Shown one piece after another: positions 1-3,116 of a DNA stretch of 18,047 bases (within the stretch, counting starts at the first letter, position 1; the number at the start of each line of letters is the position of its first letter). The stretch is from Sediminibacterium sp. (GTDB lineage: Bacteria; Bacteroidota; Bacteroidia; Chitinophagales; Chitinophagaceae), in the NCBI GenBank assembly GCA_017987615.1, contig JAGNTI010000008.1, positions 1 through 18,047 of the forward strand, in the 5' to 3' direction. A program made the translations under genes and the position numbers. The notes under the pieces were generated by a model. It made no database searches. It saw only the letters and a list, made by a program, of their open reading frames with translations, and was not told the origin of the DNA.

Positions 1-296
1 GCCACAATAAAACAGGACAGTGTAGAAATATTAAACGTATTTTTTCCATCCCCACCCGTACCCACAATATCCAGTAAATCATGCGTTCCTAAATTTACAG
101 GAACAGCCAGCTCAAGTAAGGCATCTCTAAAACCTTGTAGTTCCGCAATGGTAATGCTGCGCATTAAAAACACAGTCATTAGAGAAGCTAATTCGCTATC
201 ATTATAGGCACCCGAAGACATAGACAGTAAAAGATCTTTAGCTGCCGCTCTAGTTAGCGTTTTGTGTTCGAATAAATATTGTAAAATCTTTTTCAT
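1..296 (-). CDS. trpD: Anthranilate phosphoribosyltransferase, N-terminal part (cut by window edge)
   Basis: This enzyme transfers the phosphoribosyl group of PRPP to anthranilate, the second step of tryptophan synthesis in the cytosol. The first 98 codons lie here, read from an ATG at 296-294, and the rest is beyond position 1. The N-terminal part fits the small helical domain of the family. Residues 77-92 carry the PRPP/pyrophosphate-binding signature DIVGTGGDG followed by TFNIST, which is diagnostic for TrpD within the nucleoside phosphorylase-like class III transferases. The ATG overlaps the trpG TGA by four bases (ATGA), so translation is probably coupled to trpG. Being the third gene of trpE-trpG-trpD, it should be controlled by the attenuator upstream of trpE. 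Identification is firm; the length and the genes that follow cannot be seen. Confidence 0.95.
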   Translation of the reverse strand, partial: MKKILQYLFEHKTLTRAAAKDLLLSMSSGAYNDSELASLMTVFLMRSITIAELQGFRDALLELAVPVNLGTHDLLDIVGTGGDGKNTFNISTLSCFIV

Positions 297-859
297 TTTA
301 ATAACCAGTTTTTAATAACCGTTTCGCCACTTGGCGTTAAAACACTTTCTGGATGGAATTGAACACCACAAACATCATACACAGTATGCTCAATGGCCAT
401 AATCAATCCGTTTTCATCGGTGGCCGTTACTTTTAGCACATCTGGCAAGTCTTTGCTTGCAATAACCCAACTATGATAACGTCCTACTTCGACACTATCT
501 TCTAAACCATTGAATAAATAATTAGTGTTATCAATTTTTATGGGGGTAGCAACACCATGATATACCGTAGTTAAATTTTCTAGTGTAGCACCAAACGCCT
601 CACCAATGGCCTGATGACCAAGGCAAACACCAAGTATAGATTTAGACGCAGCATACTGCTTAATTAATGGAAGCAGCAGCCCCGCTTCTGATGGAATACC
701 TGGCCCTGGAGACAATATAATTTTATCGTACTCCGCAACCTCTTCTAGCGTAATTTGATCATTTCTAACAACTGTCACTTTTTGATTCGTTATTTTTTCA
801 ACGAGGTGTACTAGGTTGTATGTAAATGAATCATAATTATCAAAAACCAATATTTTCAT
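293..859 (-). CDS. trpG: Anthranilate synthase component II (glutamine amidotransferase)
   Basis: This subunit hydrolyses glutamine and passes ammonia to TrpE, so that chorismate becomes anthranilate. The 188-residue protein is a single class I glutamine amidotransferase domain of normal length. Visible motifs are the oxyanion region LSPGPG (residues 49-54), the nucleophile elbow GVCLGHQ with Cys79, and FHPES with the catalytic pair His169 and Glu171. It is not fused to TrpE or TrpD, unlike in some bacteria. In many bacteria a TrpG-like subunit also serves PabB in folate synthesis; the position between trpE and trpD argues for a tryptophan role here, but dual use cannot be excluded. It starts 11 bases after the trpE stop codon and its TGA overlaps the trpD ATG. 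Confidence 0.96.
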   Translation of the reverse strand: MKILVFDNYDSFTYNLVHLVEKITNQKVTVVRNDQITLEEVAEYDKIILSPGPGIPSEAGLLLPLIKQYAASKSILGVCLGHQAIGEAFGATLENLTTVYHGVATPIKIDNTNYLFNGLEDSVEVGRYHSWVIASKDLPDVLKVTATDENGLIMAIEHTVYDVCGVQFHPESVLTPSGETVIKNWLLK

Positions 860-870
860 ACCAACTACTT

Positions 871-2277
871 TTATATTCCAGCAGCTAAAACCACTGCTCG
901 TTTTAATGCATTTAATTTATTGTTCACTTCTTGCAATTCACTTTCAGGACTGGATGAAACAACCACACCTGCCCCTGCTTGATAATAGAGTGTATTGTCT
1001 TTACTTAAAAAGCTACGAATCATAATGGCATGGTTAAAATCACCATTAAAGCCTACAAAGCCAATAGCGCCACCATAATAGCCGCGTGCCGTTGGTTCCA
1101 ACCCGTCTATAATTTCTAGTGCCTTAAATTTTGGCGCACCACTTAATGTACCGGCAGGAAATGTTTGCGCTAACACACTAAACGGATTTGCATCAGCTCC
1201 TAATGTGCCCACCACTTCGCTCACCAAATGAATCACATGCGAATAAAATTTGACCTGCTTGAACTGACTAACCGTTACCGCAGTGCATGACCTACTTAAA
1301 TCATTACGCGCAAGATCAACAAGCATTACATGCTCTGCATTTTCTTTGGCGTCTTCTAATAGTTTTGCAGAAAGCGCTTTATCTTCCTCATCATTTCCTG
1401 TTCTTTTAAATGTTCCTGCAATTGGATGCATCACGGCTTTATTGTTTCGAACAATTAGCTGCGCTTCTGGAGATGACCCCATTAATTTATAATCACCATA
1501 ATCAAAGAAAAATAAATACGGTGAAGGATTAACGCTCCTTAAAGCGCGGTATACATTAAACTCATCTCCTTTAAAGGACTGTTCAAATCTTCTACTGAGT
1601 ACAATTTGAAAAACATCCCCACGTAAACAGTGTTGAATACCTTTTTCTACCATGGCCTTATACGCGTCGTCTGTAACATTTGAACGCTCATCACCAACTG
1701 GGTTAAATGGAAACTGCGGCACGTCTTTGTTTCGAATAAGGGATTCGATAAGTGAAGTGTCTGCTTCTTCGCTTGCTAGCAAATTTTGACAAATAAATAA
1801 TTCGTCTTTATAATGATCAAATACAATAACGTACTGATACAACCTATAACGAATGAGTGGAATATTTGTGTTTTTTGCTTCGGAAAATGAAATGGTTTCA
1901 AATAAAGGAATAGCATCAAAACTGGTATACCCAAATAATCCTTGGGCAAAATTAGTTTCTTTGTGCGCATGGGGCACCACTTGGTAGCCCTGCATATAAC
2001 TCCACAACTGTTGATCGATTTGTGAACCAGCTACCTCCTTTTTTATAGGATCTTGGTTGGGATATTTTAGTTCGATGGTTTTTGAATCTCTAACTTCAAT
2101 ACCACCAATAGCATTAATACATATAAAAGAGTAGCTATTTTCTGCAACATGAGCATCGGTACTTTCTAGTAAGATCGTATCTCTAAAACGGTCTCTTAAA
2201 CGCAGGTAAATACTAACGGGCGTATACACATCCGCTAACATTCTTTTGCTCTCTGTACGTAAATCAATTTTTTTCAT
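871..2277 (-). CDS. trpE: Anthranilate synthase component I
   Basis: The large subunit binds chorismate and, with ammonia from TrpG, makes anthranilate, the committed step of tryptophan synthesis. At 468 residues it has normal length. The N-terminal domain holds LLEST at residues 36-40; in characterised TrpE proteins the LLES motif forms part of the tryptophan feedback site, so feedback inhibition is inferred. The C-terminal chorismate-binding domain shows GDVFQIVLSRRF, PIAGTFKRTG, HVMLVDLARNDL and PAGTLSGAPK followed by YYGGAIGF, all typical of TrpE. PabB and isochorismate synthases share this fold, but the LLES motif, the trpG/trpD neighbours and the Trp-codon attenuator upstream make TrpE the clear choice. 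The ATG lies 12 bases after the attenuator hairpin and has no Shine-Dalgarno sequence. Confidence 0.96.
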   Translation of the reverse strand: MKKIDLRTESKRMLADVYTPVSIYLRLRDRFRDTILLESTDAHVAENSYSFICINAIGGIEVRDSKTIELKYPNQDPIKKEVAGSQIDQQLWSYMQGYQVVPHAHKETNFAQGLFGYTSFDAIPLFETISFSEAKNTNIPLIRYRLYQYVIVFDHYKDELFICQNLLASEEADTSLIESLIRNKDVPQFPFNPVGDERSNVTDDAYKAMVEKGIQHCLRGDVFQIVLSRRFEQSFKGDEFNVYRALRSVNPSPYLFFFDYGDYKLMGSSPEAQLIVRNNKAVMHPIAGTFKRTGNDEEDKALSAKLLEDAKENAEHVMLVDLARNDLSRSCTAVTVSQFKQVKFYSHVIHLVSEVVGTLGADANPFSVLAQTFPAGTLSGAPKFKALEIIDGLEPTARGYYGGAIGFVGFNGDFNHAIMIRSFLSKDNTLYYQAGAGVVVSSSPESELQEVNNKLNALKRAVVLAAGI

Positions 2278-2280
2278 AGG

Positions 2281-2318
2281 ATATAAATAAAAAGCCCCGA
2301 CTTATGATCGGGGCTTTT
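2281..2318 (-). terminator. trp attenuator: intrinsic terminator
   Basis: On the minus strand an 11-bp stem (plus-strand arms 2290-2300 and 2308-2318, core GCCCCGA/TCGGGGC) closes a 7-base loop and is followed by a U-rich tract, TTTTTATTTATAT in DNA form. This has the form of a rho-independent terminator, yet it sits just before the trpE start codon, so it is best read as the terminator arm of an attenuator. The 5' arm can instead pair with an upstream segment inside the leader peptide gene. No other terminator is visible after ispD, so it may also stop transcripts coming from the operon upstream. Confidence 0.9.
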
Positions 2319-2362
2319 GAAATTATTCAAAAAGTAGTGGACAGGCCATTACAATCCCCGAT
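2307..2362 (-). promoter_or_regulatory. trp attenuator: antiterminator and competing pairings
   Basis: Plus-strand CCCCGAT at 2356-2362 is the exact complement of ATCGGGG at 2307-2313, giving a 7-bp antiterminator that uses the 5' arm of the terminator. The upstream segment lies inside the last codons of the leader peptide gene (Asn16 to Leu18), so a ribosome at the leader stop codon would cover it, while a ribosome stalled on the Trp codons would leave it free. Two further pairings can compete. CAATC/GATTG (2352-2364) forms a small hairpin that hides the antiterminator segment. The Trp-codon stretch 2379-2387 pairs over 9 bp, with one G-U, to 2332-2340. The regulatory scheme is inferred from these complementarities and the classic E. 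coli model. Confidence 0.82.
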
Positions 2363-2408
2363 TGGAGTTAGTATGCCACCACCACTTGTTATTTAATACT
2401 TGAACCAT
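2349..2408 (-). CDS. trpL: trp operon leader peptide with three consecutive Trp codons
   Basis: A 19-codon reading frame starts at an ATG at 2408-2406 and ends at TAA at 2351-2349. It encodes MVQVLNNKWWWHTNSNRGL. Codons 9 to 11 (2384-2376) are all TGG, a striking cluster for the rarest amino acid, placed before a terminator and a tryptophan biosynthesis gene. The peptide itself probably has no function; its translation would sense charged tRNA-Trp. With little charged tRNA-Trp, the ribosome stalls on the TGG run, the antiterminator forms and trpE is transcribed. With ample tryptophan the ribosome reaches the stop codon and the terminator forms. The start lies only five bases after the -7 promoter element, so the mRNA may be leaderless. 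The symbol is given by function; sequence homology to E. coli TrpL is not claimed. Confidence 0.88.
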   Translation of the reverse strand: MVQVLNNKWWWHTNSNRGL

Positions 2409-2413
2409 GGATA

Positions 2414-2446
2414 CAAATTTAAGAAAGATTGACGGGTTAGGCCAAT
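2414..2446 (-). promoter_or_regulatory. Predicted promoter of the trp operon (Bacteroidota type)
   Basis: On the minus strand TAAATTTG (plus 2414-2421) matches the Bacteroidota -7 consensus TAnnTTTG exactly. ATTG (plus 2443-2446) lies 21 bases upstream, within the known spacing, and matches TTTG at three of four positions. Transcription would begin a few bases after the G, close to or at the leader ATG at 2408. The promoter lies entirely in the short gap after ispD. Confidence 0.7.
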
Positions 2447-2453
2447 TTTTTTT

Positions 2454-3116
2454 CTAGAAAAGGGATTCGGCCACAATTAAATCTTGGGGGCGTGTAATCT
2501 TAAGATTACTATACTCCCCTTCTATTAAACGAACCGTGTGCCCTGCGGCTTCCACCACGGTAGCTTCATCGGTAAAGCTAGCCTGGTAGGGCTGTTCAAA
2601 AGCAGGCAATAATAGGGTGCTTAAAAAGGTTTGTGGGGTTTGTATGATTTTAACCAGGTTTCGGTCCACAACCTGGTGGGTATCCCCTGAAATAAGCCTT
2701 ATACTATCGGTAGCAGTAACAGCTGGTATAGCCGACCCGTGAACCAGGGCCTGTTCGTAGCATTTTTTAATTAAATCACTAGACACGAGGCATCTTACCC
2801 CATCATGCACAAAAATTACGCCTGGCTCTTTAATAGCCTTTAAACCATTTTTTACAGAATCAAATCTGGTTGCACCACCCGCAATAAACTGAATATGCGA
2901 AAGTTGGGCAGGTTCAAAATAAGTAGCCGCTTCCTCCAAATAAGAAGCTGGCAATACCAGAACAATTTGAATATCGTAATAGGCATAAAAAAACTGTTGC
3001 ACGGTATGCCAAATGATGGGCCTACCTTTCAAATGCAAAAATTGTTTAGGCACATCCGTACCCATTCTTACACCTGACCCACCCGCAACAATTACTGCCG
3101 TTTTTTTCATTGTCAT
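2454..3116 (-). CDS. ispD: 2-C-methyl-D-erythritol 4-phosphate cytidylyltransferase
   Basis: IspD joins CTP and methylerythritol phosphate to form CDP-methylerythritol in the non-mevalonate isoprenoid pathway, so the host probably uses the MEP route. The 220-residue protein has normal length and a Rossmann-like nucleotidyltransferase fold. The CTP-binding loop is visible near the N-terminus as GGSGVRMG followed by PKQF, with the Arg and Lys expected to hold the phosphates. FVHDGVR (around residue 100) and a central TATDSI segment also fit the family. Its ATG follows the TAA of the asparaginase gene with no gap. A second ATG two codons later (MTMKK) is an equally possible start, since many family members begin near the VIVAGG strand. 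No terminator of its own is seen before the trp promoter. Confidence 0.93.
   Translation of the reverse strand: MTMKKTAVIVAGGSGVRMGTDVPKQFLHLKGRPIIWHTVQQFFYAYYDIQIVLVLPASYLEEAATYFEPAQLSHIQFIAGGATRFDSVKNGLKAIKEPGVIFVHDGVRCLVSSDLIKKCYEQALVHGSAIPAVTATDSIRLISGDTHQVVDRNLVKIIQTPQTFLSTLLLPAFEQPYQASFTDEATVVEAAGHTVRLIEGEYSNLKITRPQDLIVAESLF

Follow-up and report, generated by a model that had tools for sequence, protein, structure and literature searches.

A conserved tryptophan-codon leader upstream of trpE in Sediminibacterium-like Bacteroidota very probably acts as a ribosome-mediated attenuator

The window, i.e., the whole stretch of 18,047 nt of DNA analysed here, comes from a Sediminibacterium-like genome (Chitinophagaceae, Bacteroidota) that is 55% complete. 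Its closest trpE among the best 80 of 580 named matches (99%) is in a metagenome-assembled genome labelled Sediminibacterium sp. The genes trpE, trpG and trpD follow, in this order and on the minus strand, 3' of a short leader, and ispD ends 45 bp upstream of the leader ATG. The genes and elements are the following.

3–296, minus strand: 5' part of trpD, the gene being cut by the contig end (TIGR01245, partial match, below cut-off)
293–859, minus strand: trpG (TIGR00566, above cut-off)
871–2277, minus strand: trpE, anthranilate synthase component I (best matched by TIGR00564, under the cut-off of that model)
2290–2318, minus strand: predicted intrinsic terminator hairpin with stem AAAAGCCCCGAT/GTCGGGGCTTTT; a T-rich stretch then runs to about 2283
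2307–2313, minus strand: shared segment CCCCGAT, part of the terminator 5' arm and partner of either the antiterminator segment or the terminator 3' arm
2332–2387, minus strand: predicted protector hairpin P1, AAGUGGUGG (2387–2379) with CCACUACUU (2340–2332), from folds and covariation
2349–2408, minus strand: leader peptide ORF of 19 codons, MVQVLNNKWWWHTNSNRGL (ATG at 2408, stop TAA at 2349)
2356–2362, minus strand: antiterminator segment ATCGGGG, within the last leader codons, starting 13 nt past the last Trp codon
2376–2384, minus strand: three adjoining Trp codons, TGG TGG TGG
2414–2421, minus strand: TAAATTTG, which fits the sigma-A −7 motif of Bacteroidota (TAnnTTTG) and ends 5 nt before the leader ATG
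2442–2445, minus strand: TTGG, a weak candidate for the −33 element, some 20 nt further upstream than the −7 motif
2454–3116, minus strand: ispD

The 45-bp gap between ispD and the leader ATG holds no terminator-like site and, since both lie on the same strand, read-through from ispD into the leader is possible.

A preliminary description of this locus had proposed a 19-codon frame with three consecutive TGG codons, an 11-bp terminator before trpE and a 7-bp antiterminator pairing that excludes it. The frame is indeed present at 2408–2349 of the minus strand, with the TGG run at 2384–2376. The terminator hairpin (2318–2290) also holds, its length being revised from 11 to the 12 pairs given by the folding tool, of which one, at the top, is a G-U; the stem ends 12 nt upstream of the trpE ATG. 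The segment ATCGGGG (2362–2356) is fully complementary, over 7 bp, to CCCCGAT (2313–2307), and because the latter belongs to the terminator 5' arm the antiterminator and the terminator are mutually exclusive. The antiterminator segment lies, as had been claimed, in the last leader codons, where a ribosome at the stop codon would mask it. The fold of 2430–2280 has a z-score of −4.67, and none of 200 shuffles was as good. Between P1 and the terminator there is a small A/U-rich hairpin, CTTTTTGAATAATTTCAAAAG (2333–2313, minus strand); by eye, a similar stretch, GAATATATTC, can be seen in a number of relatives in the alignment described below.

We took the regions upstream of trpE from 110 loci, namely the best 80 of 580 named matches and the best 30 of 38 places in 60 related genomes. 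The latter 30 are all of the same genus and include the window, and the two sets overlap in genomes. The titles of the 80 loci are Chitinophagaceae, Sediminibacterium, Niastella, "Bacteroidetes bacterium" and a few others, and "Chitinophagaceae" is used here as shorthand for the set. A script looked for leader ORFs in which two or more Trp codons adjoin, and required a hairpin with a T-rich tail. The preliminary description had suggested looking in relatives for conserved Trp codons and stems and for compensatory changes. These were found: the layout of leader ORF, Trp run and terminator is present in 101 of the 110 loci (the window counted), and compensatory changes occur in the terminator and in P1. 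Seven of the nine loci outside this count have just 26–117 nt of upstream DNA (L041, L048, L064, L005, L006, L012, L026). Inspection by eye of the two others, both missed by the script rules, showed WWW in a frame with a GTG start (L055), and an ORF end with a terminator, the Trp run lying beyond the 320 nt taken (L054). WWW occurs in 100 of the 101 leader peptides, the exception being WWG (L033). All 101 leaders have the hairpin and T-rich tail, the tail being no independent evidence because it belonged to the search rule. The distance from the stop codon to the stem is 26–37 nt in these leaders, versus 10–168 nt from the stem to trpE. Removal of rows that were more than 97% alike left 79 rows (alignment A1).

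The three alternative helices are supported to unequal degrees in this comparison: strongly for the terminator, once a one-base slip is allowed for the antiterminator, and also for P1. The terminator has 92.5% of cells paired and 93 both-side changes, against 23.9 (sd 9.3) upon shuffling, with none of 500 shuffles as high. When the antiterminator was read in one fixed register, the change measures were not above those of the shuffles in the 79-row alignment. The absence of a signal is attributable to a slip of one base between peptide classes: the G run lies one base later in the frame in 45 of the 79 rows (peptides ending in RGL and similar) and in an earlier register in 31 (GVL, RVL), while three fit neither. 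With class-specific registers, which were picked after the alignment had been inspected, a mean of 6.67 of eight positions pair over 76 rows, versus 6.34 (sd 0.05, maximum 6.54) with permuted partners. A-U replaces G-C in six of the 31 rows of the GVL/RVL class, and the four-G core shows no both-side changes in the 45 rows of the larger RGL class. An alignment-free comparison of mean duplex energies between own and foreign partners gave −18.0 and −14.1 for the terminator, −12.9 and −11.5 for the antiterminator, and −11.4 and −10.2 for P1, each gain lying beyond all 5000 permutations; two control pairings were nearly equal (−7.2 and −7.1, −6.9 and −6.8). The own partner beats the average foreign one in 75 of 79 rows for the terminator and in 68 of 79 for the antiterminator.

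The protector hairpin P1, the conservation and the sigma-A motif just before the leader AUG go beyond the preliminary description. P1 is the most stable fold of the window RNA upstream of the terminator. It spans the Trp codons and bases past the stop codon, and its inner pairs include CUCC (2367–2364) with GGGG (2359–2356), which hides the antiterminator segment. Minimum-energy folds of the 79 rows contain its stem and tip in 65 cases, the stem alone in nine, the tip alone in three and neither in two. In the covariation analysis, 86.4% of cells are paired and there are 34 both-side changes, against 16.0 (sd 2.6) upon shuffling (0/500 as high). Two pairs account for 29 of these 34 changes. Pairs that change on both sides number six, a figure reached in 39 of the 500 shuffles. 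One pair named beforehand, at columns 68–97, is present in just four of the 79 rows. Row by row, the own partner of P1 is better than the mean foreign one in 48 of 79 rows, hardly above the 45 and 47 rows of the two controls, so only some of the rows account for the gain. These data support a protector hairpin over the Trp codons that would compete with the antiterminator, less strongly than they support the terminator.

The residues after WWW, HTNS and then RGL or GVL, also look conserved, and the codons after the WWW run contribute to both P1 and the antiterminator. Since the slip alters the peptide and the helix is kept, it is the RNA rather than the peptide that looks conserved in this part of the leader. 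We thus infer that selection past WWW acts on the RNA and not on the peptide.

The ORF, its Trp codons, the terminator, the alternative pairings, and their conservation and spacing are read from the sequence and its comparison with relatives. Attenuation by tryptophan, the reading given in the preliminary description, is the best explanation that we have for them, and conservation, compensatory changes and own-partner pairing support it. The element very probably controls the trpEGD operon by ribosome-mediated attenuation of transcription, and would sense tRNA-Trp. RNA polymerase would start at the leader AUG or a few bases upstream, and a ribosome would translate the leader. If charged tRNA-Trp is scarce, the ribosome should stall on the three UGG codons and open P1, leaving AUCGGGG free about 13 nt ahead; this segment could then pair with the 5' arm of the terminator while the 3' arm is still to be transcribed, and transcription would enter trpE. 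If tryptophan is plentiful, the ribosome would reach the stop codon and cover AUCGGGG, the terminator would form, and a leader RNA of some 120–125 nt would be released. If the leader is left untranslated, P1 would sequester AUCGGGG and the terminator should form as well.

Fold models of partial transcripts were made for the 79 leaders, with assumed ribosome masks reaching 11 nt past the last Trp codon and 12 nt past the stop codon. A ribosome modelled on the last Trp codon, with the 3' arm unmade, gives the antiterminator in 79/79 folds; a ribosome modelled at the stop codon gives the terminator in 79/79; and folds without a ribosome contain P1 and the terminator in 76/79. The terminator, once complete, wins at equilibrium in 77 of the 79 leaders even with a stalled ribosome, so the switch must work kinetically. 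In the models without a ribosome and with the 3' arm unmade, five or more P1 pairs cover the Trp codons in 53 of the 79 leaders and four or more antiterminator pairs are present in 31, which indicates that P1 is not an absolute lock.

The position of the −7 motif (2421–2414) gives a predicted start at about 2409, and hence a 5' untranslated region of about 1 nt. In Flavobacterium psychrophilum, the sigma-A −7 motif TAnnTTTG lies at −12 to −5, as stated in excerpts of PMC9723704. In 62 of the 79 leaders, the end of a relaxed form of the motif precedes the AUG by 4–8 nt (by 7 nt in 41 of them), which predicts a start 0–4 nt before the AUG; the strict form does so in 31 of 79. The relaxed motif is missing at 4–8 nt in 17 of 79 leaders; some leaders carry a motif 11–23 nt upstream. 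Among 482 control ORF starts from the same loci, we found five relaxed and four strict motifs within 3–9 nt. Since the control ORFs are mostly operon-internal genes, this comparison shows the motif to be non-random and does not show leaderless starts to be special. Messages of this kind are rare: 5' ends shorter than 10 nt make up about 3.7% of messages in Bacteroides thetaiotaomicron (passages of PMC7366714), and leaderless messages 5.5% in F. psychrophilum (parts of PMC9723704).

A similar Trp-rich leader before trpE in Bacteroidota, Bacteroid-trp (RF01692), was predicted in 2010 (Weinberg et al. 2010; sections of PMC2864571). Its consensus comprises the AUG and a run of UGG codons, together with a hairpin that covers the Trp codons and the first part of the terminator. 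The model differs from the window element in that it stops at the terminator 5' arm and has a structure without the antiterminator pairing. Leaders of one class family (f74) score 59–76 bits with it, and five of the 20 class loci scanned reach its gathering score of 49; none of the 20 Chitinophagaceae loci scanned does so, and the window has 26.4 bits. Of the five matched loci, three have 18 nt between the end of the relaxed promoter motif and the AUG, one has 20 nt and one 4 nt, as compared with the 4–8 nt that prevail in Chitinophagaceae. The window leader is the local counterpart of Bacteroid-trp, missed by the model at its threshold. The enteric type of leader (RF00513, Trp_leader), which has the same logic of stall, antiterminator and terminator, has the best E-value among the 29 matches listed (28.3 bits, E = 0.00059 in a 301-base search) and is below its gathering score of 41. 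In Escherichia coli the antiterminator segment comes after the stop codon, whereas in the window it is inside the ORF, and in the wider class it is found before, across or after the stop.

The trpLE(G) system (rnTrpL/peTrpL) of the alphaproteobacterium Sinorhizobium meliloti shows a further resemblance. According to portions of PMC7298713, its leader RNA begins with the AUG of the leader ORF and attenuation yields a small RNA; the peptide there has 14 residues, and the 5' end is known in that species whereas it is predicted here. The statement in the preliminary description that there is far less experimental evidence for such attenuation outside Proteobacteria is fair and not absolute, since Corynebacterium glutamicum and Streptomyces venezuelae have experimental support, as cited in passages of PMC4833913. 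Closer to the window, in the same phylum, leader-peptide attenuators have been suggested in F. psychrophilum, no test of mechanism being reported in the available parts of PMC9723704; "trp" and "tryptophan" do not occur in its main text, hence a trp leader is not named there. PMC2965389 contains none of the words Bacteroid, Flavobacter, Cytophaga, trpE and tryptophan, and we found no experimental test of a Bacteroidota trp attenuator in accessible portions of the open-licence literature.

We then considered the class, which we take to be the Bacteroidia of GTDB. A trpE match at E ≤ 1e-60 was found in 64 of 197 genomes, the source genome included, and not in the other 133, so the sample represents trpE genes like that of the window. 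From 65 places we kept 62 upstream regions, among which two belong to the same family; the source genome, a place at a contig edge (G287) and a weak match of 39% (G345) were left out. A W-rich ORF is present in 52 of these 62 regions, and an ORF with a terminator in 46; the reverse strand has two and none, respectively, and 20 dinucleotide shuffles give means of 2.6 (maximum 6) and 0.1 (maximum 1). By the rule used, 10 of the 62 regions have no W-rich ORF. In 27 of 45 class regions the antiterminator helix begins 11–20 nt downstream of the last Trp codon; shuffled controls give a mean of 9.0 such regions (maximum 18) and foreign terminator arms one of 17.8 (maximum 26), over 200 rounds each. 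For 68 of the 79 Chitinophagaceae rows this distance is 12–15 nt. The leading edge of a stalled ribosome should lie at about this distance. The spacing between Trp codons and antiterminator is the best evidence obtainable from sequence alone that ribosome stalling may be the sensor. Relative to the stop codon, the antiterminator of 46 class regions is inside the ORF in 11, across the stop in 27 and after it in eight. Relaxed promoter motifs end 4–8 nt before the ATG in 23 of 52 class leaders, 9–22 nt in 15 and in neither range in 14, these counts being without a control. A covariance model (R1) has strong matches (at least 74 bits) only inside the family, in samples of 198 and 296 genomes; its class-wide matches, at about 43–56 bits, concern 26 loci (L142–L167), of which 12 adjoin trpE and 14 do not, some being short contig ends. 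Some class families have separated Trp codons (WRWQ, WLWQ, WCW) and not a WWW run (L200, L201, L212, L188, L194, L215, L217, L185).

A broader scenario can be put forward tentatively, and we are somewhat more inclined to doubt it than to accept it: these leaders may form an old, class-wide family of trp attenuators in which many lineages, that of the window among them, start the transcript at or near the leader AUG, ribosome and polymerase being synchronised by leaderless initiation. A ribosome would then load once the RNA emerges, without a Shine-Dalgarno sequence, and the antiterminator would stay at its distance from the Trp codons but drift in position with respect to the stop codon.

Other explanations of the leader were weighed against ribosome-mediated attenuation of transcription. 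Released products might act in trans in addition to attenuation, as rnTrpL and peTrpL do in S. meliloti; the layouts are alike, with an AUG-initial leader RNA (predicted here) and a small RNA from attenuation (portions of PMC7298713), whereas the change of peptide class by a one-base slip after the Trp run argues against a conserved function of the peptide, and we find such an addition unlikely. It is less likely still that the hairpin hides the trpE start and that the leader controls translation instead of termination. The stem of the window is just 12 nt from the trpE ATG, within reach of a ribosome, but among the 101 leaders the distance from stem to trpE varies from 10 to 168 nt while that from stop to stem keeps to 26–37 nt, and long T runs are plain in the sequences after the stem (a T-rich tail as such was part of the search rule).

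Two further possibilities have hardly any probability in our judgement. The hairpin might merely terminate ispD transcription and the WWW frame be due to chance, a suggestion invited by the presence of ispD on the same strand, 45 bp from the leader ATG and with no terminator-like site between, and contradicted by the recurrence of leader ORF and Trp run in 101/110 loci; an ORF of this type with a terminator arose in at most one of 62 shuffled regions per round. Regulation by TRAP, a T-box or a riboswitch is just as implausible, as we found no supporting evidence for any of them and a comparison with Rfam gave no match at gathering score in the window, nor in 20 Chitinophagaceae loci. TRAP of Bacillus subtilis binds 11 (G/U)AG repeats (sections of PMC4027176); a TRAP-regulated leader was rejected, since such a row of repeats is missing in 2408–2290, where reading of the sequence revealed no GAG or UAG triplet.

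The probable ribosome-mediated attenuator of this leader belongs to a familiar type of system, here in a version particular to its lineage and well conserved in a group where such attenuators have hardly been studied. The new details are the protector hairpin, the register slip, the spacing preferred across the class and, probably, the near-leaderless start. If the mechanism operates as described, transcription and translation in Bacteroidota would be coupled closely enough for an attenuator of the classical type, although the phylum has a different sigma-factor motif (passages of PMC7366714) and, according to excerpts of PMC9723704, lacks Shine-Dalgarno sequences. The preferred spacing would allow the ribosome footprint to be measured from genomes, and the near-leaderless start that we predict bears on how the first ribosome gets synchronised. 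The Rfam model of Bacteroid-trp covers just part of what appears to be a class-wide set of leaders.

Some features outside the leader deserve mention. A second TrpE-like match in the same genome (L002, G000:C206) covers the C-terminal part, is 38% identical and is likely another chorismate-using enzyme. A perfect sigma-70 consensus, TTGACA-17-TATAAT, is found at 1786–1814 of the plus strand, opposite to and within trpE, and is probably due to chance because Bacteroidota use a different sigma-factor motif (passages of PMC7366714). Finally, a strong terminator-like hairpin of 14 pairs lies immediately 3' of rpoC (7205–7172, minus strand).
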